Virus record (IMG/VR): IMGVR_UViG_3300009183_000166
Location: 1-41,094 of that record
Length of the DNA: 41,094 nucleotides
Source of the DNA: a virus
Direction: 5' to 3' (one strand)
The translations under genes and the position numbers were made by a program. Under the pieces are notes generated by a model. It saw only the letters and a list, made by a program, of their open reading frames with translations. It made no database searches and had not been told where the DNA came from. Positions 31,392 through 41,094 of the stretch are shown here, piece by piece (within the stretch, counting starts at the first letter, position 1; the number at the start of each line of letters is the position of its first letter).

Positions 31392-33209
31392 ATGGCATAT
31401 CAAGTAAACAAATTTAACGGAGTACTACAAACATCAGTAGCAGACGGAACAATCGATTCCAGTACTGATCTACGATTTGTAGGTAAAAACTACGCAGGTT
31501 ACGGCGAAGTACAAAACGAAAATTTCCTACATTTAATGGAAAATTTTGCAAATACATCGGCACCTCCAAAGGTAGTTCCTGGGCAAATATGGTACGATAG
31601 CGGAAATAAAAAGCTAAAATTCTATGATGGCACTAAATTTAAAGTTGCTAATGGTGCCGAAGTTAGTGTTACTCAACCCGCAGGCTTAGCCACTGGTGAG
31701 TTTTGGTGGGACTCAAACGCCAAACAATTGTATACATGGTCCGGAACACAGTATGTTTTAGTTGGGCCAGCTGCAAGTCCAGAACTTGGATCTAGTGCTA
31801 TTGCTACAGACACCGTTAAAGACAATCAAACACCGGTTGCTGATACCCATGCTATTATTAAAATTATTGCAGGTGGAGAAATTGTAGCAATTGTTAACTC
31901 TCTTGAAGATTTTATTCCAGCAAGTTCAACAGGACTAACAGCTAACTTTCCTATTATTAAACAAGGTATTACATTAATCAATACCCCAGCTAACGGCCAA
32001 ACAACCAGTGATTACAGATTCTGGGGAACAGCAAGTAACTCAGACAGGTTAGGCGGCAGACCAGCAGCTGACTATGTGCGTGTTGGTATTGCAAACCCGT
32101 TCACTTCATCGATTACTTTTCCAGATGTAGGTTTTTTTGTAGGTACTGATACCGACCTTCGTATTTGGATTGAAGATAGCGAAAATGTTATCATTGAAAA
32201 TAAAAATAACAACGACATTACAGTTAGGATCACTAACGGAACGGTCAAACAAAACGTTGCAGTGTTTACAGGAACAGGAATTGTACCAGGAACAACCGCA
32301 ACATATAATTTAGGTTCCCCAACTCTTAAATGGGAATCGGTATATGCTAATAGTTTAGTGGCCAATCTCAAAGCACTTGATCTTACAACTGCATATGACT
32401 ACTCAACAAAACAATTCACAGGTGGATTTGTAGGAAATTTCCTAGCAACTGATGCAACTGTATTAGTTAATGGTACTAGTAAACAAATTGGTTACGCTGG
32501 TGCAACAATCAGAGGAAACTTATTTGGTTCTGTTCAGGGCGATGTTAACGGAACAGCATCAAATGCGTTAAAATTAAACTCACTATCCCCAGATGTAACA
32601 GCATTGGCTGATACTGTGGCAGTAAGAAATTCGTCAGGTGAATTAAATGCTGTAAAATTCAATGGTATTGCTACAAGCACAGATAAGGTAAAAATTGATG
32701 ATTCGGCAACTGATACTGCCTGGAATGGTAGTGATCAAAGCACTTGGTATAGATCAGCTAGAACAACAAAAACAGCATTTACTATTGCTGCCAGAAATGC
32801 AGCAGGCAATTTGTTAGCCAATGTATTTGACGGAACAGCAACTTCAGCTCAATATGCTGACTTAGCAGAAAAATATCTAGCAGATGCAGACTATGAAACA
32901 GGGACAGTGGTTACTGTTGGTGGCGACAAAGAAGTCACGGCTTGTACACAAGGTGATAGAGCCATTGGTGTAGTCAGTGCAAACCCAGCTTACATGATGA
33001 ACAGTGGTTTAGAAGGCGGTACATATATTGCCCTTAAAGGAAGAGTACCAGTTAAAGTAACAGGTGCTGTTAAGAAAGGCGATAGACTAGTAGCAGGACC
33101 ATCCGGAACAGCATTAGTAAGACAAAATTTCAACGTAGATACTTTTGCAATTGCACTAGAATCTAGTAGTGTTGACGGAATGAAAGTAATTGAAGCGTTA
33201 GTGTTATAA
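31392..33209 (+). CDS. Tail fibre protein, paralogue 4, with peptidase-G2-like C-terminal domain
   Basis: 605 residues. The shared N-terminal domain is present (GKNYAGYGEVQNENFLHLME, PGQIWYDSGNKKLKFYDGTK, TGEFWWDSNAKQLYTWSGTQ). The shaft contains LGSPTLKWESVYANSLVA-type units and a DGTATSAQYADLAEKYLAD junction. The C-terminal 120 residues (from about 486) read GTVVTVGGDKEVTAC, RAIGVVSANPAYMMNS, GTYIALKGRVPVKVTGAVKK and GDRLVAGPSG. This resembles the intramolecular-chaperone/autoproteolytic domain (peptidase G2 type) found at the end of several phage fibres and spikes, which guides trimer folding and may cut itself off. The resemblance is from memory of the pattern; catalytic residues cannot be assigned. 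The gene has its own late promoter motif and AAGGTGG ribosome site. Confidence 0.75.
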   Translation: MAYQVNKFNGVLQTSVADGTIDSSTDLRFVGKNYAGYGEVQNENFLHLMENFANTSAPPKVVPGQIWYDSGNKKLKFYDGTKFKVANGAEVSVTQPAGLATGEFWWDSNAKQLYTWSGTQYVLVGPAASPELGSSAIATDTVKDNQTPVADTHAIIKIIAGGEIVAIVNSLEDFIPASSTGLTANFPIIKQGITLINTPANGQTTSDYRFWGTASNSDRLGGRPAADYVRVGIANPFTSSITFPDVGFFVGTDTDLRIWIEDSENVIIENKNNNDITVRITNGTVKQNVAVFTGTGIVPGTTATYNLGSPTLKWESVYANSLVANLKALDLTTAYDYSTKQFTGGFVGNFLATDATVLVNGTSKQIGYAGATIRGNLFGSVQGDVNGTASNALKLNSLSPDVTALADTVAVRNSSGELNAVKFNGIATSTDKVKIDDSATDTAWNGSDQSTWYRSARTTKTAFTIAARNAAGNLLANVFDGTATSAQYADLAEKYLADADYETGTVVTVGGDKEVTACTQGDRAIGVVSANPAYMMNSGLEGGTYIALKGRVPVKVTGAVKKGDRLVAGPSGTALVRQNFNVDTFAIALESSSVDGMKVIEALVL

Positions 33210-33210
33210 C

Positions 33211-34131
33211 ATGCCTACACAAATATCAAGAACCGATTATAATAATATTCGAGCCAAGATTGTTGATATTCTCGGCCCAGGAACTGGCCCTAAAGGATAC
33301 GGACAAACAGTATTAGGTGCGGCAGTATCTCTAGGCGAGCAAATTTCTAAAGTCCAATGGGACGATTTGCGCAACATGCTTCGTAGTATTCGAATCCATC
33401 AAGATGGAGCAGAGCCTGTTCTTACAGAAGCTGTGGCATTGGCAGTTATACAACAAGGAATAACATTCCCAAATAGTAATTATGATAATGCTATTGAAGC
33501 AGCCAGTTTGAATAGATTTAATATCGGCGTTGATCAATCTGTAATTACAGCCAAACCTGGAACATCGCGGACAGGTTCTTGGATGACCCAGTCATCCTGC
33601 GAAATTACCATTACTTTTGGCTCAGCAAATCTAGCAAGATACTTTTTCAACAGTGGTGGAAAAATAAGAATATCCAGTTCTCGTACAGGTGGAACAACAT
33701 CACCACAAAATAATTCTTGGACAAACTTATTAGACACAGTTGGCCTACAAAGTTTTGGTGCTAATACACCCGGTGCAGCAACATTTTATTCGTTGACCAA
33801 TGTTTATCAAACATATTATCAACAAGGCGCCACAAGTTCGTACTCATCTAACAACTATCAATTGCAAGCCAAAACCAATGTTGCAAACAATTCGGCTGGC
33901 ACAGCAACAGTGGTATACATAAAAGTATTATGGAACGATGCTTATGTTGATCCAGATGCACTAAACCCAGATTATCCAAATCCTGTTACAATTCACCCGC
34001 CTGGAGATGTAATAGATGGCACATTGGCTGTAACGGTAGACGAATTAAAAGCTACAGGATCGTTAATACCTACAGGAACGTTCACCATTACAAGCCCAAC
34101 GTATTCAATATCGTCGATAACCGCGACTTGA
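33211..34131 (+). CDS. Virion-type protein of unknown function, paralogue of the C-terminus of the next gene
   Basis: 306 residues, not recognised as a named family. It starts ISRTDYNNIRAKIVDILGPG, then GYGQTVLGAAV, WDDLRNMLRSIRIHQDG; later FFNSGGKIRISSSRTGG, NNYQLQAKTNVANNSAGTAT and DGTLAVTVDELKATGSLIPT. All these blocks recur in order in the C-terminal 315 residues of the protein at 34169 (DYNDIQSKVAGVLG, GYGQTVFSNQI, FFNSGGEIRFISARTGG, YKIYARTPGITDNSAGTA, DGTISVSLSTLEATGTLLPS). It is beta-rich, lacks signal or membrane segments, and starts one base after the stop of fibre paralogue 4. The context suggests a tail or fibre accessory protein exposed on the virion. Confidence 0.6.
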   Translation: MPTQISRTDYNNIRAKIVDILGPGTGPKGYGQTVLGAAVSLGEQISKVQWDDLRNMLRSIRIHQDGAEPVLTEAVALAVIQQGITFPNSNYDNAIEAASLNRFNIGVDQSVITAKPGTSRTGSWMTQSSCEITITFGSANLARYFFNSGGKIRISSSRTGGTTSPQNNSWTNLLDTVGLQSFGANTPGAATFYSLTNVYQTYYQQGATSSYSSNNYQLQAKTNVANNSAGTATVVYIKVLWNDAYVDPDALNPDYPNPVTIHPPGDVIDGTLAVTVDELKATGSLIPTGTFTITSPTYSISSITAT

Positions 34132-34168: not shown

Positions 34169-36916
34169 ATGGCTTTACAAACCGTCACACTAACTAGCAC
34201 ATCACCCACAACATGGACAGTTCCTACTAGATGTTTTATCATTAGAGAGCTGTTTATGGTTGGCGGCGGTGGCACCGGCGCAACTCCTTCTGCAGGTAGT
34301 GTCCCAGGTGGCGCCGGCGGTGGCGGCAGAGTTACTATCGACAATGACATTGCAGTTACTCCTGGTACAAACATATCTTATCGTGCAGGGCCCTCAGATA
34401 CCGCTACAACATTTAGTGGCTATTCAGCAGCCGCAGGCAGTCCTGGATCAACTAACGTCGGTGGAGCTAGTGGAAGAAACATATCCGGTAGTGCTGTTTC
34501 AACTACTGGTAGTACTGGCGGAACTACAGCAATTGGCAGTACTGGTGGCGGAGGCGGCGCTGGAGCTGGTGGAAATGGTCTTGCTGATGCAAGCGGAACT
34601 GCTGGTAATTCTGGCGGTCCGGGATTTTTATACAAAGGAAATTTTTACGGTGGTGGAGGTGGTGGTGGAGGTGGCCGTTACGACCAAAGCACAACACGAA
34701 CAATAAAAGGCGGCGCAAGCGGCACAGGTGGTGGCGGCAGCGGAGGTGGTGAAGGCCTCAATGGTGCATCTGGCACCGCAAATACTGGTGGTCGAGGTGG
34801 TGGAGGATGTGCTAGTGGAACATCAACTGAAAGAACAGCAACTGGTGGAACTCCAAATCCCGGAGCAGGCTATGTAGGTCGTGCAGCAACTAGTGGCGGC
34901 TCGGGCGGATCTGGCATAATTATAATAAACTATGACGAAGCTGAGTTTACTTTCAAAACTAATCTTCCTGGTGTCTCTGATGGTAATTCTATAATTGTAT
35001 ACATGTATACAAAGAATGTCTCAAATGGCTCCGTATTACCTTACACAATTTCAGGTACAGGAATAACAGCATCTGATTTTAATCCTGCATCTTTAACAGG
35101 TTCATTCACAGTATCAAGTACAGATGGCGGCCTAAGCGGAGTAGCCAGTACCACAATAACCATTGCCGCAGATAGCGGTGTTACAGAAGGTGAAGAAATT
35201 GCCCTCCTTACTTTAAATAATGGCGTTGCATTTACATCTTTCAAAATTGGTGACCTATATCAAAATGCTGTGGCTAACACAGCTGATTATCCAGGCGCAC
35301 TGGTAATAGGACGTTCATATACTATTATTACAGCAGGCACAACAATATGGACAGATCTTGGAGCTGCCAACAATACCGTAGCAACTACATTCACTGCCAC
35401 TGCCACAGGATTAGTAACTGCAGGTAACTTTGTCAATGGTAGATCTTATACTATTACATTTGCTGGCAATACTGATTTTACAAAATTTGGATCATTATCA
35501 AATGCTGTTGGCACTACATTTACTGCCACAGGTTCTGGATTTATCAATGCAACAGCAATGGCAGCATCTCAAAAGTATACTGTAGTAACTATAGGCACTA
35601 CAGACTATACTCTAGTAGGCGCAGGATGGGTAGATGTCGCAGCATTCCAAATTGGCGAAGTATACACAATTAAAGCATTAGGAACAACAACAAATACTCA
35701 GTGGAATAATATTGCCGGTACTACAGGAATAACATACGCCGCTGGTATGACAATTACTGTGATAACTGTGATAACAACAGGTTCTGGAACAGGCCGCGCC
35801 CTACCAGAAACATTCACGGCATCAACCGGATTAACATTTACAGCAACCGGCCCTGCTACAGGAACTGGTACAGTGATGCCAGCGGCATCATTAACATTGG
35901 GAACTGACTTAGGTACAGCTAGTCAAGGAACCGGAGTAGCTTCTGGTATATGGGTTTCTAAAACTATTCAAGTTGCAGACTACAACGACATTCAAAGTAA
36001 GGTCGCTGGAGTATTGGGCGTTGGCGCAGGCAACAGCGGCTACGGACAAACGGTTTTTAGCAATCAAATAACAACCAGCAATCGAGTCGCAGTAACTGAC
36101 TGGACTAGTTTAAAATATGATATTATCAACGCCTATGTACATCAAATTGGAACAGTCCCAACATTAGTTGATGCATCTGTAGGAGGAACAGTAAGAGCTC
36201 ATACAGCAACAGCACCTTACAAACAGTATTCTTCTTGGGCCGATGTAATAGTTACACAAAAATTTGACATTGCTTCTTCACAAGCAATTACTAGAACTGC
36301 TCCTGTAGGATTAGGATCTTGGTATGCTGAAACTGCGTGGCCTGGAGCACTTGGATCAACTTGGACTACAAGAATATACAGCTTGGTCAGTGTTTATTGG
36401 CCAACGGCTGCTGCTGCTCGTGCTTTCTTCAATAGTGGCGGCGAGATACGATTTATATCAGCAAGAACGGGCGGATCTACAACAGGTGCTATCGCTGCTC
36501 AAAATGCAAATTGGACCGCCTTCTTAGCTGGTGTTGGCACCGTAGGATTCGGCGGCAACTACCCAATAGCAGATACTGGAAGTTTAAACGGTGGAAATTT
36601 TTATAGATTGAGTAATGGATTTAATGCATGGTATACTGCCACTGCTTCAAATCCGTACTCAACAAACGCCTATAAGATTTATGCTAGAACCCCAGGTATT
36701 ACAGATAACTCTGCAGGAACTGCGGCCAGCATTGAATTCCAAGTTGAATGGACAGATAATCACACAGGGCAGGGCGGTGCAACAGAAGGAGTTGACGGAA
36801 CAATAAGCGTTTCTTTGTCAACGCTTGAAGCCACGGGTACATTGTTGCCGTCTGGCTCAGGCAATTTCCAAGTAACAACACCAACAATCTCAATCACTCA
36901 AGCCCCAACCACATAA
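34169..36916 (+). CDS. Adhesin-like virion protein: polyglycine domain, Calx-beta-like domain, repeats and duplicated C-terminal module
   Basis: 915 residues. The start (TLTSTSPTTWTVPTRCFIIR then ELFMVGGGGTG) leads into a glycine-rich domain at about 30-254, with runs of up to nine glycines and the ending GGSGGSGIIIINYDE. This type occurs in phage tip adhesins, including the T4-like gp38 adhesins with polyglycine-helix bundles. Residues about 285-355 resemble a Calx-beta domain (ASDFNPASLTGSFTV, ITIAADSGVTEGEEIALLTL). Residues 380-570 hold degenerate repeats (RSYTIITAGTTIWTDLGA ... TTFTATATG). Residues 601-915 are the module shared with the gene at 33211. The gene lies after the fibres behind a perfect late promoter. 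Likely role: receptor-binding surface protein. The reading frame is chosen over an alternative frame at 34260 because of its promoter, ribosome site and continuity. Confidence 0.65.
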   Translation: MALQTVTLTSTSPTTWTVPTRCFIIRELFMVGGGGTGATPSAGSVPGGAGGGGRVTIDNDIAVTPGTNISYRAGPSDTATTFSGYSAAAGSPGSTNVGGASGRNISGSAVSTTGSTGGTTAIGSTGGGGGAGAGGNGLADASGTAGNSGGPGFLYKGNFYGGGGGGGGGRYDQSTTRTIKGGASGTGGGGSGGGEGLNGASGTANTGGRGGGGCASGTSTERTATGGTPNPGAGYVGRAATSGGSGGSGIIIINYDEAEFTFKTNLPGVSDGNSIIVYMYTKNVSNGSVLPYTISGTGITASDFNPASLTGSFTVSSTDGGLSGVASTTITIAADSGVTEGEEIALLTLNNGVAFTSFKIGDLYQNAVANTADYPGALVIGRSYTIITAGTTIWTDLGAANNTVATTFTATATGLVTAGNFVNGRSYTITFAGNTDFTKFGSLSNAVGTTFTATGSGFINATAMAASQKYTVVTIGTTDYTLVGAGWVDVAAFQIGEVYTIKALGTTTNTQWNNIAGTTGITYAAGMTITVITVITTGSGTGRALPETFTASTGLTFTATGPATGTGTVMPAASLTLGTDLGTASQGTGVASGIWVSKTIQVADYNDIQSKVAGVLGVGAGNSGYGQTVFSNQITTSNRVAVTDWTSLKYDIINAYVHQIGTVPTLVDASVGGTVRAHTATAPYKQYSSWADVIVTQKFDIASSQAITRTAPVGLGSWYAETAWPGALGSTWTTRIYSLVSVYWPTAAAARAFFNSGGEIRFISARTGGSTTGAIAAQNANWTAFLAGVGTVGFGGNYPIADTGSLNGGNFYRLSNGFNAWYTATASNPYSTNAYKIYARTPGITDNSAGTAASIEFQVEWTDNHTGQGGATEGVDGTISVSLSTLEATGTLLPSGSGNFQVTTPTISITQAPTT
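35308..35880 (+). repeat. Degenerate tandem protein repeats inside the adhesin-like gene
   Basis: Four or more units of about 40 residues with the pattern Y-T-I/V-x-x-x-G-T-T-x-x-T-x-x-G-A ... G-T-T-F-T-A-T-G: units begin near 35308, 35437, 35574 and 35658, and a last partial unit ends TFTATGPATGTGTV. At DNA level the copies share short identical stretches such as CTTATACTATTA and ACTGCCACAGG, so they arose by duplication and then diverged. Confidence 0.65.
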
Positions 36917-36932
36917 TTTTCTCCTGATTATC

Positions 36933-36954
36933 TAGCACAATAAATAAAGTGCTA
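36933..36954 (+). other. Inverted repeat enclosing a late-promoter-like motif
   Basis: TAGCAC (36933-36938) and GTGCTA (36949-36954) are perfect inverted repeats around the ten bases AATAAATAAA. Only a weak T-stretch (CTTTAATT) follows, so it is a poor intrinsic terminator. The loop holds the late element described separately. Confidence 0.55.
36939..36946 (+). promoter_or_regulatory. T4-type late promoter element before the glycosyltransferase operon
   Basis: AATAAATA in the 57-base gap between the adhesin-like gene and the 116-residue gene. A start near 36953 would give a 20-base leader with AGGGG (36963-36967) before the ATG at 36974. It differs from the GAATAAATA sites in the preceding base (C instead of G). 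Confidence 0.45.
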
Positions 36955-36973
36955 CTTTAATTAGGGGATTATT

Positions 36974-37324
36974 ATGGAAGAGCAACTCAAAAAAGCTCTA
37001 GAGTTTTCAAACTATCGTCAGACCTTTTCAATCCAAAGACGCCTTCTCAAAGAAAAAATTGAAGCCAAATTAACCATTGGTCAGAACGGTGGCATCTTTA
37101 AGATTGATAAATCGTTAATAACATTCGTACAGATGTTTATTGATCAAGGAAGAACCGAAAATGTTCCCTTAATCGATTCTAACGAAAATCCAATAATGAT
37201 TGAAGATTTAGAAAAATTTAGAGATGATATCTTTGACAGATATTATGATACTACATTAGAGTATTATCAAGAATTCCAAGAACTTAAAAAAAGCCGCAGT
37301 GTGGAAAAGCTATTAGACATATGA
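36974..37324 (+). CDS. Small helical protein of unknown function
   Basis: 116 residues, function not recognised. The sequence is strongly charged and probably mostly helical: LKKALEFSNYRQTFSIQRRL then LKEKIEAKLTIGQNGGIFKI, a middle segment SLITFVQMFIDQGR, and a C-terminal helix FRDDIFDRYYDTTLEYYQEF ending KSRSVEKLLDI. No signal peptide, membrane segment or metal site is seen. A good AGGGG ribosome site precedes it by 6 bases. Its last codons overlap the next start (ATGA), so it is translated together with the first glycosyltransferase. I recall similar small proteins after the fibre genes in aquatic T4-like phages, without a known role. It could be a chaperone or structural accessory for the fibre region or for the glycosyltransferases. 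Confidence 0.65.
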   Translation: MEEQLKKALEFSNYRQTFSIQRRLLKEKIEAKLTIGQNGGIFKIDKSLITFVQMFIDQGRTENVPLIDSNENPIMIEDLEKFRDDIFDRYYDTTLEYYQEFQELKKSRSVEKLLDI

Positions 37325-38184
37325 CACGCGGCGCACTAATATTTGCACATAACAATAGAAACATTGACTATGCTTATATGGCAATGGTATCTGCCCAACT
37401 GGCCAAGAAAAATTTAGGCATCCCTGTTTCTTTGGTTACAGATCCATCTACAATGGAGTGGGTTAAAACTTCAAACAATTATGAACAATTGGTTTCGACA
37501 TTTGACAAAATTATAGAAGTTGAGCGTCCTATTACAGATAATATGCGACGCCTGCACGACGGAGTACATTTTAAAAATATCCCGTTTGTCAATGCTAATC
37601 GTGCCAGTGTTTATGAATTAACTCCGTATGATCAAACGCTGTTAATGGACAGTGATTTTTTAATTTTTTCCAATAGATTAAATTCCTATTGGGACGTTGA
37701 TGCAGAAGTTATGATTGCTAAAAATATGTTAGACATATACGATCAAAAGAGATTAGGATATCACGACAAATATGTTTCTGATACAGGAGTTCATTTGTAT
37801 TGGGCAACAACTGTGATGTTTAAAAAAACACCATATAGTAAAATGTTTTTTGAACTGGTTAATATCATCAGACAAAACTATCAATATTATGCTGATCTAT
37901 TTCGATTTGATACAACACAATATAGAAATGATATTTCTTTCAGTGTAGCAAAACATATACTAGATGGATTTGAAACAAACACCAATGAAAGTCTTCCACC
38001 AATTTTAACAGTATTAGACAAAGACATTTTGCATTCTGTAGACTCTACTGGAAAACTAACAATACTGGCAAGTCCAAACAGCGATAATAATTATTATGCG
38101 GCTGCTGTACGAGGGCTAGATATTCATATAATGAACAAACAAAGCATTATCCGTCATACTGAAAAACTATTGGAGTTGGTATGA
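37321..38184 (+). CDS. Predicted glycosyltransferase (GT-A type), pair 1 first member
   Basis: 287 residues, no membrane segment. It opens RGALIFAHNNRNIDYAYMAM, a beta-strand then helix typical of a nucleotide-sugar-binding fold, followed by LGIPVSLVTDPST. The DxD-type metal/nucleotide motif is LLMDSDFLIF with Asp110-Ser-Asp112. After it come WDVDAEVMIAKN and TTVMFKKTPYSKMFFELV, as in GT8-like enzymes where the acceptor side follows. The organisation is the same as in the next gene. Donor and acceptor cannot be predicted. It overlaps its neighbours by 4 bases on both sides (ATGA). The absence of transmembrane or signal segments points to a cytoplasmic enzyme acting on phage proteins or soluble precursors. 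Confidence 0.6.
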   Translation: MTRGALIFAHNNRNIDYAYMAMVSAQLAKKNLGIPVSLVTDPSTMEWVKTSNNYEQLVSTFDKIIEVERPITDNMRRLHDGVHFKNIPFVNANRASVYELTPYDQTLLMDSDFLIFSNRLNSYWDVDAEVMIAKNMLDIYDQKRLGYHDKYVSDTGVHLYWATTVMFKKTPYSKMFFELVNIIRQNYQYYADLFRFDTTQYRNDISFSVAKHILDGFETNTNESLPPILTVLDKDILHSVDSTGKLTILASPNSDNNYYAAAVRGLDIHIMNKQSIIRHTEKLLELV

Positions 38185-39020
38185 ACTTTGGATATTTAAT
38201 TTTTGTTTCTACTAACGATAAAATAGATTATCTTAATCTAGCTTATGCATTAGCACTTAGTATTAAGAATACTCAAAAAGAAGGATACGATAAAGTATGC
38301 CTAATGACAGATGATGTTGATGCGGTAAAAAAATTAAAATCTTCTTGGGTGTTTGATCACGTAGAAAAAATTGAAAAGTATCAAGGATGGGATGCTAGAT
38401 CTTGGATGGATACATATAGTCCTTTCGACTACACAGTTTGCCTAGATTCCGACATGTTGTTTACTAGAGATTACAGTCATTGGATTGATTATTTTGTAGA
38501 AAACAATGAATTGTATATTGCCAACACTGCTTATACTTATAGAGAAGAATTAGTAGATAGTGACTACTATCGCAGAACATTTACAAAAAATAAATTGCCT
38601 AACCTGTATAGTTTTTACACGTTCTTTAAAAAGGACAGCGCAGTAGCTAAAGAATTTTTTACATTGGCTCGCAACATTATTGAAAACCCTGTAGAATTTT
38701 CAAATTTATTTTTAACAGAACTTAAACCAAAAGTTGTTGGTACAGATGAAGCATTTGGATTAGCAGCAAAACTTTTAGATATTGGCGATGATATTGCATA
38801 TAAGTTAGAGTTTCCTAAAGTGGTTCACATGAAGGGAATGATACAAAAATTTCCATGGCCGTCAGATGTATGGAGTGATCATTTAGGATTTTACATAAAT
38901 CGTAAAGGCCAAATAAAAATAGGAAATTACCAGCAGCATAATATTGTTCATTATGTAGAAAAAGATAAAATTACACAAGAAGTAATTAATATTTTAGAGG
39001 AGATAGCATGGAAGAAATAA
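38181..39020 (+). CDS. Predicted glycosyltransferase (GT-A type), pair 1 second member
   Basis: 279 residues, a diverged paralogue of the preceding protein: FGYLIFVSTNDKIDYLNLAY matches its opening, and the DxD-type motif is VCLDSDMLFTRD (Asp89-Ser-Asp91). Other marks are KVCLMTDDVDAVKKLKSSW (sugar-nucleotide side), YSFYTFFKKDSAVAKEFFTL, GTDEAFGLAAKLLDIGDD and VVHMKGMIQKFPWPSDVW with HLGFYINRKGQIKIGNYQQH near the end. The conserved GTDEAF and late HMKG segments resemble the catalytic and metal-binding positions of GT8-type enzymes. GGAG (38172-38175) lies just before the ATG, which overlaps the previous stop. The 3' end overlaps the next gene by 13 bases. Confidence 0.6.
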   Translation: MNFGYLIFVSTNDKIDYLNLAYALALSIKNTQKEGYDKVCLMTDDVDAVKKLKSSWVFDHVEKIEKYQGWDARSWMDTYSPFDYTVCLDSDMLFTRDYSHWIDYFVENNELYIANTAYTYREELVDSDYYRRTFTKNKLPNLYSFYTFFKKDSAVAKEFFTLARNIIENPVEFSNLFLTELKPKVVGTDEAFGLAAKLLDIGDDIAYKLEFPKVVHMKGMIQKFPWPSDVWSDHLGFYINRKGQIKIGNYQQHNIVHYVEKDKITQEVINILEEIAWKK

Positions 39021-39631
39021 TCGATTTGACTGAGTTATTTGAACCTGTGATATTGCCCCCTGTAGAATTCTTTGCAGTATTTGATCCAACATCTGGAGCA
39101 ATTACAGCAGTAGGTCCAGGTTCTGCATTTTTAAACGAAGAACATAAAATCTCAATGGATCAAGAAGTTGCTGAAATGATTATTGAAGGCAAAATCAATC
39201 TCAATTCTTGTTCTGTGGATATAACTGGAGACAGTTATGTTATATCTGAAACTAGAGCCTTGTATAAAATAGATGATGTGTTACATCGTATTGTTGAAGT
39301 TAAACATGCAGAATTTGATAAACCCAATGTATTTTTAAGTTATAAATTAAACAGTTTAACAATAGAATTAACTGAAGAATACGGAGGAACTAAAAAACTT
39401 CCTAAGAAATTTCAGCCAGTTAAAAAGAAAAAAATTAACTGGGCTGGCAACACTGATATGAATTTTTTAATTACAGATTATAACGATCCTAATGTATTAT
39501 ACAAACCATTCACTATAAAAATATCAGATCTTGTAGGGAAAAAATTTGTACTTAAAAATTTAGAATTACCTACAAAGTTTAGCGTATATACAAGACGCCT
39601 GTTTAAAAATTATGTACTGGAGATTAAATGA
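39008..39631 (+). CDS. Protein of unknown function within the glycosyltransferase operon
   Basis: 207 residues, not recognised beyond a memory of similar unassigned proteins in aquatic T4-like phages. It begins MEEIIDLTELFEPVILPPVE then FFAVFDPTSGAITAVGPGSA, continues EVAEMIIEGKINLNSC, YKIDDVLHRIVEVKHAE and ends with SVYTRRLFKNYVLEIK. The pattern is alternating short strands, probably two small beta domains joined by a basic linker (KKLPKKFQPVKKKK, about 128-142). No enzyme motif is seen. The excellent GAGGAG site (38997-39002) fixes the start, which lies 13 bases inside the preceding gene. The stop overlaps the next ATG (ATGA). Its place between the two enzyme pairs suggests a substrate or adaptor of glycosylation, or a tail accessory protein. 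Confidence 0.6.
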   Translation: MEEIIDLTELFEPVILPPVEFFAVFDPTSGAITAVGPGSAFLNEEHKISMDQEVAEMIIEGKINLNSCSVDITGDSYVISETRALYKIDDVLHRIVEVKHAEFDKPNVFLSYKLNSLTIELTEEYGGTKKLPKKFQPVKKKKINWAGNTDMNFLITDYNDPNVLYKPFTIKISDLVGKKFVLKNLELPTKFSVYTRRLFKNYVLEIK

Positions 39632-40509
39632 AAATAGTAGAATTTGATATTATTTTTATCAGCTACGATGAACCAAATGCTGATGTGCATTATGCTGACT
39701 TGTGCGATAAAGCACCGTGGGCAAAACGAGTACATGGGGTTAAAGGCAGCGATCATGCCCACAAAGCCGCAGCCAACTTGAGCGACACTAATTGGCTTAT
39801 AACAGTAGATGCAGATAATATTGTAGATCCAGCGTTCTTTGATCTAGATCTAGATATGAGTGATCCAAAGATCCAAGTGTATGGCTGGTGCGGTAAAAAC
39901 AAAATTAACGGATTACGATACGGCAATGGTGGGATTAAAATTTGGAAAAAAGAGTTTATCCTCGGCATGCAAACACACGAAGCTAGTACAAGTGATAGGG
40001 CACAAGTAGATTTTTGTTGGGAAGATGGATATCGTAATTTTCCTGTAGTCTACAGCGACAGTATTATTACAGGTAGTCCTTTCCAAGCATGGAGAGCAGG
40101 ATTCCGAGAAGGTGTCAAGATGACATTGAAAGATGGAATTAAAGTTCCACCTATGGAGTTACAGGACCATATATGGTGGCATAATATACATAGGCTGCGT
40201 ATGTGGAGTACTGTAGGTGCCCATGAAGAACACGGATTATACGCAATACATGGCGCAAGACTTGGCACATGGATGACTAACTGTACAGATTGGGATTATG
40301 TGCAGGTTAGAGATTTTGAAATTCTTAAAAATATATACCAAGAAAATGTTTTGCATGGTTGTATTGAAAAAGACATACAAGAGCTTGGAGAAAAAATTAA
40401 ACTTAATTTAGGTTTAGATTGGCCTAACCTCGATGCTCAGCAGAGCAAATATGTTTTAGATCTTTATAATGAAACAATCAATCTTGGATTAACTTATTTT
40501 AGGCAATAA
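39628..40509 (+). CDS. Predicted glycosyltransferase-like protein, pair 2 first member
   Basis: 293 residues. The opening EFDIIFISYDEPNADVHYAD then WAKRVHGVKGSDHAHKAAAN and WLITVDADNIVDPAFFD is a GT-A/GT2-like nucleotide-sugar fold with the DxD-type motif Asp61-Ala-Asp63. After it come VYGWCGKNKINGLRYGNGGI, QVDFCWEDGYRNFPVVYSDS, GSPFQAWRAGFREGVKM and LYAIHGARLGTWM. The next gene has the same blocks in the same order (SYNEPNAD, HGIKGIHQAH, VVDADAEI, YGYGGVKL, FNTWKSAFRE, YGAHAYMGAIAG), so the pair arose by duplication. Family members are known to me in aquatic T4-like phages as hypothetical proteins. GGAG (39619-39622) precedes the start. No membrane segment is present. Confidence 0.6.
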   Translation: MKIVEFDIIFISYDEPNADVHYADLCDKAPWAKRVHGVKGSDHAHKAAANLSDTNWLITVDADNIVDPAFFDLDLDMSDPKIQVYGWCGKNKINGLRYGNGGIKIWKKEFILGMQTHEASTSDRAQVDFCWEDGYRNFPVVYSDSIITGSPFQAWRAGFREGVKMTLKDGIKVPPMELQDHIWWHNIHRLRMWSTVGAHEEHGLYAIHGARLGTWMTNCTDWDYVQVRDFEILKNIYQENVLHGCIEKDIQELGEKIKLNLGLDWPNLDAQQSKYVLDLYNETINLGLTYFRQ

Positions 40510-41094
40510 TGTACGATATTATTTTTATCAGTTATAATGAACCAAATGCAGATGCTAACTTTGAAAAGTTAAAAGCAAGGTTTCCTTACGCACATAGAGT
40601 GCATGGAATTAAAGGAATACATCAAGCACACATTGCCGCAGCAAAAAAAGCATTTACAAAAATGTTTTGGGTGGTAGATGCTGATGCAGAAATACTTGAC
40701 ACATTTAATTTTGATTATGAAGTTAGCAAATACGATTTAGAATGTGTACATGTATGGCGCAGTCGTAACCCCATCAATGATTTGGAATACGGGTATGGTG
40801 GCGTTAAGTTATTGCCCAAGCGACTAACACAAAATATGGATATATCCAAGCCGGACATGACCACAAGCATCAGTTCTTTGTTTAAGGCAATGCCAGAAGT
40901 CAGTAACATTACTGCGTTCAATACAGATCCATTCAACACTTGGAAATCAGCGTTTAGAGAATGTTGTAAGTTATCAAGTAAAATTATCGATCGCCAAGAC
41001 GATGTAGAGACTCAACAGAGATTAGAAGCATGGTGTATTCTAAACGAGTCAGCGCCGTATGGTGCTCATGCCTATATGGGTGCAATCGCAGGAA
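40509..41094 (+). CDS. Predicted glycosyltransferase-like protein, pair 2 second member (3' end cut by window edge)
   Basis: The ATG at 40509-40511 overlaps the previous TAA by one base. The frame is open for 195 codons to the right edge, so only the N-terminal part is seen. It reads MYDIIFISYNEPNADANFEK, RFPYAHRVHGIKGIHQAH, KMFWVVDADAEILDTFNF (Asp57-Ala-Asp59), CVHVWRSRNPINDLEYGYGG, PDMTTSISSLFKAM, NITAFNTDPFNTWKSAFREC, and ends ...GAHAYMGAIAG. The blocks match the preceding protein, which implies a GT-A-like domain that would end within the next 100 residues or be followed by more domains. AGG at 40501-40503 is a modest ribosome site; coupling to the upstream stop is likely. Confidence 0.65.
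   Translation, partial: MYDIIFISYNEPNADANFEKLKARFPYAHRVHGIKGIHQAHIAAAKKAFTKMFWVVDADAEILDTFNFDYEVSKYDLECVHVWRSRNPINDLEYGYGGVKLLPKRLTQNMDISKPDMTTSISSLFKAMPEVSNITAFNTDPFNTWKSAFRECCKLSSKIIDRQDDVETQQRLEAWCILNESAPYGAHAYMGAIAG

Follow-up and report, generated by a model that had tools for sequence, protein, structure and literature searches.

The window analysed here is a virus contig of 41,094 bases (IMG/VR record IMGVR_UViG_3300009183_000166), and its 3' end carries a cassette of six open reading frames, ORF1 to ORF6, four of which encode predicted glycosyltransferases. We tentatively propose that this cassette specifies a dedicated, phage-encoded multi-enzyme pathway that may decorate the receptor-binding adhesins of widespread large aquatic T4-like phages, with a four-transferase core and interchangeable finishing enzymes. 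The chance that the acceptor is a virion protein, with the upstream adhesin as the first candidate, is about even.

The cassette is well beyond chance, with hundreds of relatives and a ratio of nonsynonymous to synonymous substitution rates (dN/dS) of at most 0.11. An earlier note on this DNA had described four DxD-bearing, GT-A-like proteins in two paralogous pairs, and motifs, paralogy and predicted folds all agree with this description. The genes overlap nearly throughout, as the note had also stated: by ATGA at the ORF1/2, 2/3 and 4/5 junctions, by 13 bases at ORF3/4 and by TAATG at ORF5/6. Membrane segments were likewise rightly said to be lacking, since the hydropathy profiles of all six proteins are without a suggestive peak; two weak peaks occur only among representatives of the downstream genes. 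This lack cannot separate the possible acceptors, because GT8 enzymes acting on the lipopolysaccharide (LPS) core are likewise soluble. The operon runs on past position 41094, where the note had placed its end: the record stops inside ORF6 (231 amino acids (aa) in full in the identical contig L001), and the operons of relatives carry on.

ORF2 and ORF3 form a paralogous pair (24% identity, E 4e-5; hhalign probability 95). The DxD motif is DSD in both (residues 110-112 in ORF2), and D110, D112 and H269 are invariant across 62 ORF2/ORF3 sequences. A DxD with a downstream histidine is the pattern expected of a GT8 metal site; here the metal-ligand roles were assigned from the order of the residues in the chain rather than from coordinates. 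ORF2, the member of the pair that was modelled, gave from the combined ORF2/ORF3 alignment a structure with a predicted local distance difference test (pLDDT) score of 93.4. Among solved structures the glycogenins matched this model best (Foldseek E 1.5e-7; 113 matches below 1e-3), and glycogenin-1 aligned to it (residues 1-287) with Z 16.9 over 218 residues at a root-mean-square deviation of 3.6 Å. Further matches included LgtC (Z 15.1), GlyE (14.7), LARGE1 (14.5) and UGGT (14.3), and the last three are enzymes of protein glycosylation pathways. The Pfam GT8 profile did not match ORF2 or ORF3 at E values up to 1, and in a sequence-profile search glycogenin came up only at E 0.4. The pair is therefore predicted to share the GT8 fold, of the glycogenin/LgtC GT-A type over the whole domain, while standing outside the curated sequence family. 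The earlier note had proposed a structural comparison with GT8 enzymes, and the ORF2 model does resemble them.

The second pair, ORF5 and ORF6 (33% identity, E 9e-33), showed no detectable relation to ORF2/ORF3 in profile comparison. Its DxD reads DAD in both proteins (61-63 in ORF5), and D61 and D63 are invariant across 60 ORF5/ORF6 sequences. The ORF5 model (pLDDT 85.7) contains a GT-A-type domain whose best Foldseek match is 2p73, an enzyme of major capsid protein glycosylation in virus PBCV-1 (E 4.2e-5; Z 10.3); VIA-align gave Z of about 10 over 130-145 residues to B4GALNT1, 2p73 and many GT-A enzymes. The likeness to 2p73 is an analogy rather than membership of a family, because identity is only 12-17% over about 130-150 residues. 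Nucleotidyltransferases (MobA, IspD) score as high as GT-A enzymes against the ORF5 model; we disfavour this assignment, as the N-terminal Gly-rich loop was not seen and the neighbours are GT8-like genes. The prediction for both proteins is a GT-A nucleotide-diphospho-sugar transferase fold, with the DxD after the central strand.

The ORF6 slot ranges from about 200 to 973 aa among relatives. Long forms (L102:11203-13134; L088:9934-12855; L093:11197-13479) consist of tandem degenerate modules, reading FWVVWDD in place of FWVVDAD, followed by a C-terminal transferase domain. The records behind L281 and L288 hold ORF6-like frames of 1624 and 1855 aa elsewhere. Homologues of ORF5 are also found in Rhodobacterales contigs (L208, L211, L213, L217, L221), near GT1/GT4- and GT28-type transferases and a Sel1/caspase-domain protein, and in Bdellovibrio-like bacteria (L214, L227, L233), where L214 (Bdellovibrionia) carries a trio of ORF5, ORF6 and a radical S-adenosylmethionine (radical-SAM) gene.

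A T4-like late promoter element, ATAAATA, precedes ORF1 and is kept in relatives, so the cassette does have a late element of its own, as had been claimed. The element occupies the loop between the arms of an inverted repeat, TAGCAC-AATAAATAAA-GTGCTA (window 36934-36955), and similar half-sites, varied in sequence, recur in many relatives. The window holds 6 copies of ATAAATA, compared with an expectation of 22.5, five on the plus strand and one on the minus strand; four of the five plus-strand copies (816, 31363, 34137, 36940) stand 29-34 nt upstream of a gene, and the fifth (23973) only 12 nt upstream of one. Of 74 distinct relatives, 47 have the exact element before ORF1, at a distance of 32-38 nt from its start codon, and the remaining relatives among those displayed have a CTAAATAAA variant at the same place. 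None of 540 regions upstream of ORF2-ORF6 (within 75 nt) and of the radical-SAM genes contained ATAAATA. With a promoter only before ORF1 and overlapping genes at every junction, we infer that ORF1 to ORF6 form one late transcription unit. A late element of the same type precedes the fibre genes, which suggests that this putative promoter drives expression of the cassette together with virion genes.

The cassette follows a block of fibre and adhesin genes (Table 1), with baseplate genes, a 4637-aa structural protein and fibres further upstream. Two of the block's proteins share a domain of a family that we name GYGQ after its common motif. In 134 of 136 testable loci a GYGQ-family gene ends at most 200 nt before ORF1, and marine contigs of metagenome-assembled genomes have the same arrangement; the earlier note had already placed the cassette directly after the tail fibre block. 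A first scan hinted that adhesin and cassette always co-occur. This was rejected, because GYGQ domains occur without the cassette in L277, inside a 1438-aa protein, and in the phage PA5oct. The link is one-way only: the cassette implies a GYGQ gene directly upstream. PA5oct is a cultured Pseudomonas jumbo phage, and the GYGQ family is present in PA5oct-like Pseudomonas phages. The PA5oct family member, EST35_0123 (L240:11980-13200), is annotated with electrospray ionisation tandem mass spectrometry (ESI-MS/MS) and follows a gp10-like baseplate gene in a baseplate/fibre block like that of the window; annotation and position suggest that it is a virion protein. The earlier note had guessed that the acceptors are Ser/Thr/Gly-rich adhesins. 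This guess is weakened, since the adhesin of relatives that carry the same cassette is short and has no Gly-rich part; the GYGQ domain is what the two forms have in common.

Table 1. Coordinates of the cassette, its promoter element and upstream structural genes in the window
Feature	Position	Strand	Description
Late promoter element	36940..36946	+	T4-like ATAAATA, 34 nt 5' of the ORF1 ATG
ORF1	36974..37324	+	116 aa; no assigned function; conserved first gene of the cassette
ORF2	37321..38184	+	287 aa; predicted glycosyltransferase of GT8/glycogenin fold; D110-S-D112 and H269 invariant
ORF3	38181..39020	+	279 aa; GT8-like, paralogue of ORF2
ORF4	39008..39631	+	207 aa; no assigned function; lowest conservation among ORF1-ORF5
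ORF5	39628..40509	+	293 aa; predicted GT-A-fold transferase; D61-A-D63 invariant; highest conservation in the cassette
ORF6	40509..41093	+	cut by the window end; shorter paralogue of ORF5; slot length varies among relatives
Fibre protein	31392..33209	+	605 aa; conserved upstream neighbour, used as synteny anchor
GYGQ-family fibre/adhesin	33211..34131	+	306 aa; candidate acceptor family
Gly/Thr-rich adhesin	34169..36916	+	915 aa; C-terminal GYGQ domain (residues 595-913); directly 5' of the cassette promoter; candidate acceptor
4637-aa protein	10063-23976		matches virion structural family phrog_10938; pieces resemble a baseplate wedge subunit and a head closure protein

The cassette is widespread and tightly held together. 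Confirmed IMG/VR stretches number 469 for ORF5, 475 for ORF4, 376 for ORF3 and 164 for ORF2. Adjacencies were counted in about 190 loci that were fetched first, some of which overlap on one contig: ORF2-ORF3, ORF3-ORF4 and ORF4-ORF5 were found 189 times each, ORF5-ORF6 186 times, ORF1-ORF2 175 times and ORF6-radical SAM 159 times. The gene order from ORF1 to ORF6 is thus essentially fixed in these loci. Purifying selection on the cassette is strong, the dN/dS limit given above holding for ORF1-ORF5 against five relatives wherever it was computable. Mean protein identity (150 random pairs of 34 distinct loci, taken over the longer length) was 79.5% for ORF5, 74.5% for ORF3, 67.2% for ORF1, 63.1% for ORF2, 52.7% for ORF4 and 42.3% for ORF6. 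The 605-aa fibre reached 63.5%, the GYGQ adhesin 45.1% and the first radical-SAM protein 52.9%; the low figures for GYGQ and ORF6 include the effect of large differences in length. ORF5 and ORF3 are therefore more conserved than the fibre and the adhesin, as expected if the acceptor travels with the phage and is not a host glycan.

Using the 605-aa fibre as an anchor, we found that relatives whose fibre is only 31-46% identical keep the order fibre, GYGQ gene, ORF1, ORF2, ORF3, ORF4 or a stand-in, ORF5 and ORF6. Both transferase families are missing from the records behind L284-L287 (up to 245 kb) and L277 (327 kb) and from PA5oct, which implies that the cassette is an all-or-none module. L277 and L284-L287 have the same fibre block with no cassette in their records, and are possible natural negative controls. 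One distant relative (L295:13776-14967) has two extra genes between the GYGQ gene and ORF1, oxygenase-like by eye (HxD...H).

Beyond ORF6 the relatives are variable. The nearest long relative, L081 (ORF2 93% identical), continues with a radical-SAM protein, a 422-aa protein of unknown function and a GDSL-like protein before minus-strand genes begin. Tails in other phages hold one to several radical-SAM/SPASM genes, 2-oxoglutarate (2OG)-Fe(II) oxygenases and B12-binding radical-SAM methyltransferase-like proteins, and in some cases nucleotide-sugar genes (NAD-dependent epimerase/dTDP-glucose 4,6-dehydratase, UDP-glucose dehydrogenase). A tryptophan halogenase gene (PF04820, E 2.6e-84) was seen once, at L026:5554-7050, about 1.5 kb after ORF5. 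In three distant relatives (L292, L296, L308) the plus-strand run stops after ORF6 without a radical-SAM gene, implying that these genes are accessories. We read this pattern as a probable fixed core with interchangeable finishing steps. It might instead mean that the product is a glycosylated small molecule or peptide, made together with the radical-SAM, halogenase and oxygenase enzymes, or a free polysaccharide. That most near relatives have radical-SAM genes after the core would suit such a product, as would the halogenase and the B12-binding proteins; the operons that end at ORF6 and the tight linkage of the cassette to the adhesin gene speak against it, and we consider it improbable.

Sequence searches placed none of the cassette proteins in a curated glycosyltransferase family: Pfam gave no match, PHROGs gave only weak matches to families of unknown function, and tblastn against INPHARED, a collection that may lack records close to the window, found nothing for ORF1, ORF2, ORF4 and ORF5; the ORF1 and ORF5 versions of L203 gave no match there either. 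ORF1 had no detected counterpart in L288 and L205, and the position of ORF4 between ORF3 and ORF5 is held by a counterpart gene in distant relatives. By hhalign, neither ORF1 nor ORF4 is related to the 118-122-aa interfibre protein, the GYGQ family or the transferases.

In our proposal, ORF1 to ORF6 would make up the fixed core of a late-expressed glycosylation pathway that is soluble and proceeds step by step. ORF2, ORF3, ORF5 and ORF6 would each probably use a nucleotide-sugar donor to add a sugar, so that a short glycan is put together in the cytoplasm of the host while virions assemble. The variable genes 3' of ORF6 (radical SAM, dTDP-glucose 4,6-dehydratase/epimerase, UDP-glucose dehydrogenase, 2OG-Fe(II) oxygenase, GDSL hydrolase) may supply or modify the outer sugars. 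The acceptor would most likely be a virion protein, in the first place the GYGQ-domain adhesins encoded directly upstream. Gene content, predicted folds, the conserved DxD motifs, the promoter sequence, synteny and purifying selection are what the analysis shows; catalytic activities, the identity of the sugars, the order of the steps and the acceptor we infer. What favours a virion acceptor is the late timing, together with the tie to a single adhesin family in distant phages, a core better conserved than the fibres and, more weakly, the lack of membrane steps.

Several observations weigh against this proposal. The adhesin does not need the cassette, as the GYGQ domains of PA5oct and L277 show, and a search for residues restricted to the GYGQ proteins of cassette-bearing phages, as an attachment site might be, gave no convincing candidate. 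ORF5 homologues occur in bacterial contigs, in Rhodobacterales beside other glycosyltransferases, implying that the family can act on cellular acceptors.

This last point leads to a serious rival, modification of the host surface, to which we assign a rather low probability. Here the four soluble transferases would act late in infection, extending or capping the lipid A-core or another surface glycan and so either preventing competing phages from adsorbing or keeping progeny off the lysing cell. LgtC, a soluble LPS galactosyltransferase of family GT8, fits ORF2 nearly as well as glycogenin does, and the Rhodobacterales neighbourhoods and the Bdellovibrionia trio point the same way. The authors of the pelagimyophage study read fibre-adjacent glycosyltransferases as host-surface modifiers (PMC7029224). 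That the cassette and the fibre genes have late promoter elements of one type argues against this rival, though a late role at lysis would be compatible with it as well. No flippase, polymerase, ligase or membrane protein was found in the unit, and no flippase, polymerase or membrane transferase in the relatives' continuations. Moreover, the core is near-invariant in order and highly conserved across strongly differing fibres, whereas host glycans usually vary.

T4 alpha- and beta-glucosyltransferase are phage glycosyltransferases that act on DNA, and the cassette might similarly glycosylate modified bases in phage DNA, an alternative that the earlier note had offered. We consider it highly improbable. 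A homologue of thymidylate synthase/dCMP hydroxymethylase (PF00303) was absent from all ten relatives of 62-280 kb, records that may be fragments, and was found in nine control genomes; T4-type DNA glucosylation is therefore unlikely. The late promoter, the fibre-adjacent genes and the predicted glycogenin/GT-A folds, rather than GT-B as in T4, also argue against a DNA acceptor. Tet/JBP was not found in relatives, a search that is uninformative since it had no positive control and the records may be fragments.

The interest of the cassette hinges on the acceptor. Fibre-adjacent glycosyltransferases of aquatic phages have so far been read as modifiers of the host O-antigen. If these phages glycosylate their own adhesins, host range could not be predicted from fibre sequence alone in a large phage group, and the sugar coat of the adhesin would be a tunable part of host recognition or evasion.

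Among known systems, the serotype-conversion (gtr) cassettes of temperate phages are likewise phage-borne glycosyltransferase operons. They carry membrane proteins (flippase, polyprenyl-linked transferases), whereas the six proteins described here have no membrane segments. Glycogenin, LgtC and GlyE resemble ORF2 in fold over nearly the whole chain, in the DxD and in the late histidine, at about 15% identity between ORF2 and glycogenin/GT8. Chlorovirus virion glycosylation, whose PBCV-1 enzyme has a GT-A-type domain in common with ORF5, is a virus-encoded multi-step process and serves as our working analogy. Phage-encoded glycosyltransferases are also known together with glycans reported on virion proteins: glycoproteins were detected in virions of XacN1, which encodes two glycosyltransferases (PMC5852040), and virion glycosylation of mycobacteriophages is cited in PMC12619734; hosts and structural genes of these phages differ from those of the window phage. 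The closest parallel in setting is the host recognition cluster (HRC) of pelagimyophages and cyanomyophages, in which tail fibres, glycosyltransferases (GT8 the commonest) and radical-SAM genes follow the baseplate genes (PMC7029224). Like the window, it belongs to T4-like aquatic phages and has fibres and glycosyltransferases in the structural region. The HRC is bounded by VrlC and gp14; in the window a giant structural/baseplate protein lies upstream, and gp14 was not identified downstream. The HRC is described as hypervariable and non-syntenic, with enzymes that modify the host O-chain (PMC7029224), whereas the order of our six genes is constant across hundreds of contigs. The earlier note knew of no characterised system with this make-up; this stands for the six-gene cassette, which we did not find described in the literature consulted, but not for the combination of fibres, GT8 and radical-SAM genes, which the HRC already has. 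Fibre-adjacent glycosyltransferases are known already, and it is the strongly conserved six-gene arrangement that is new.

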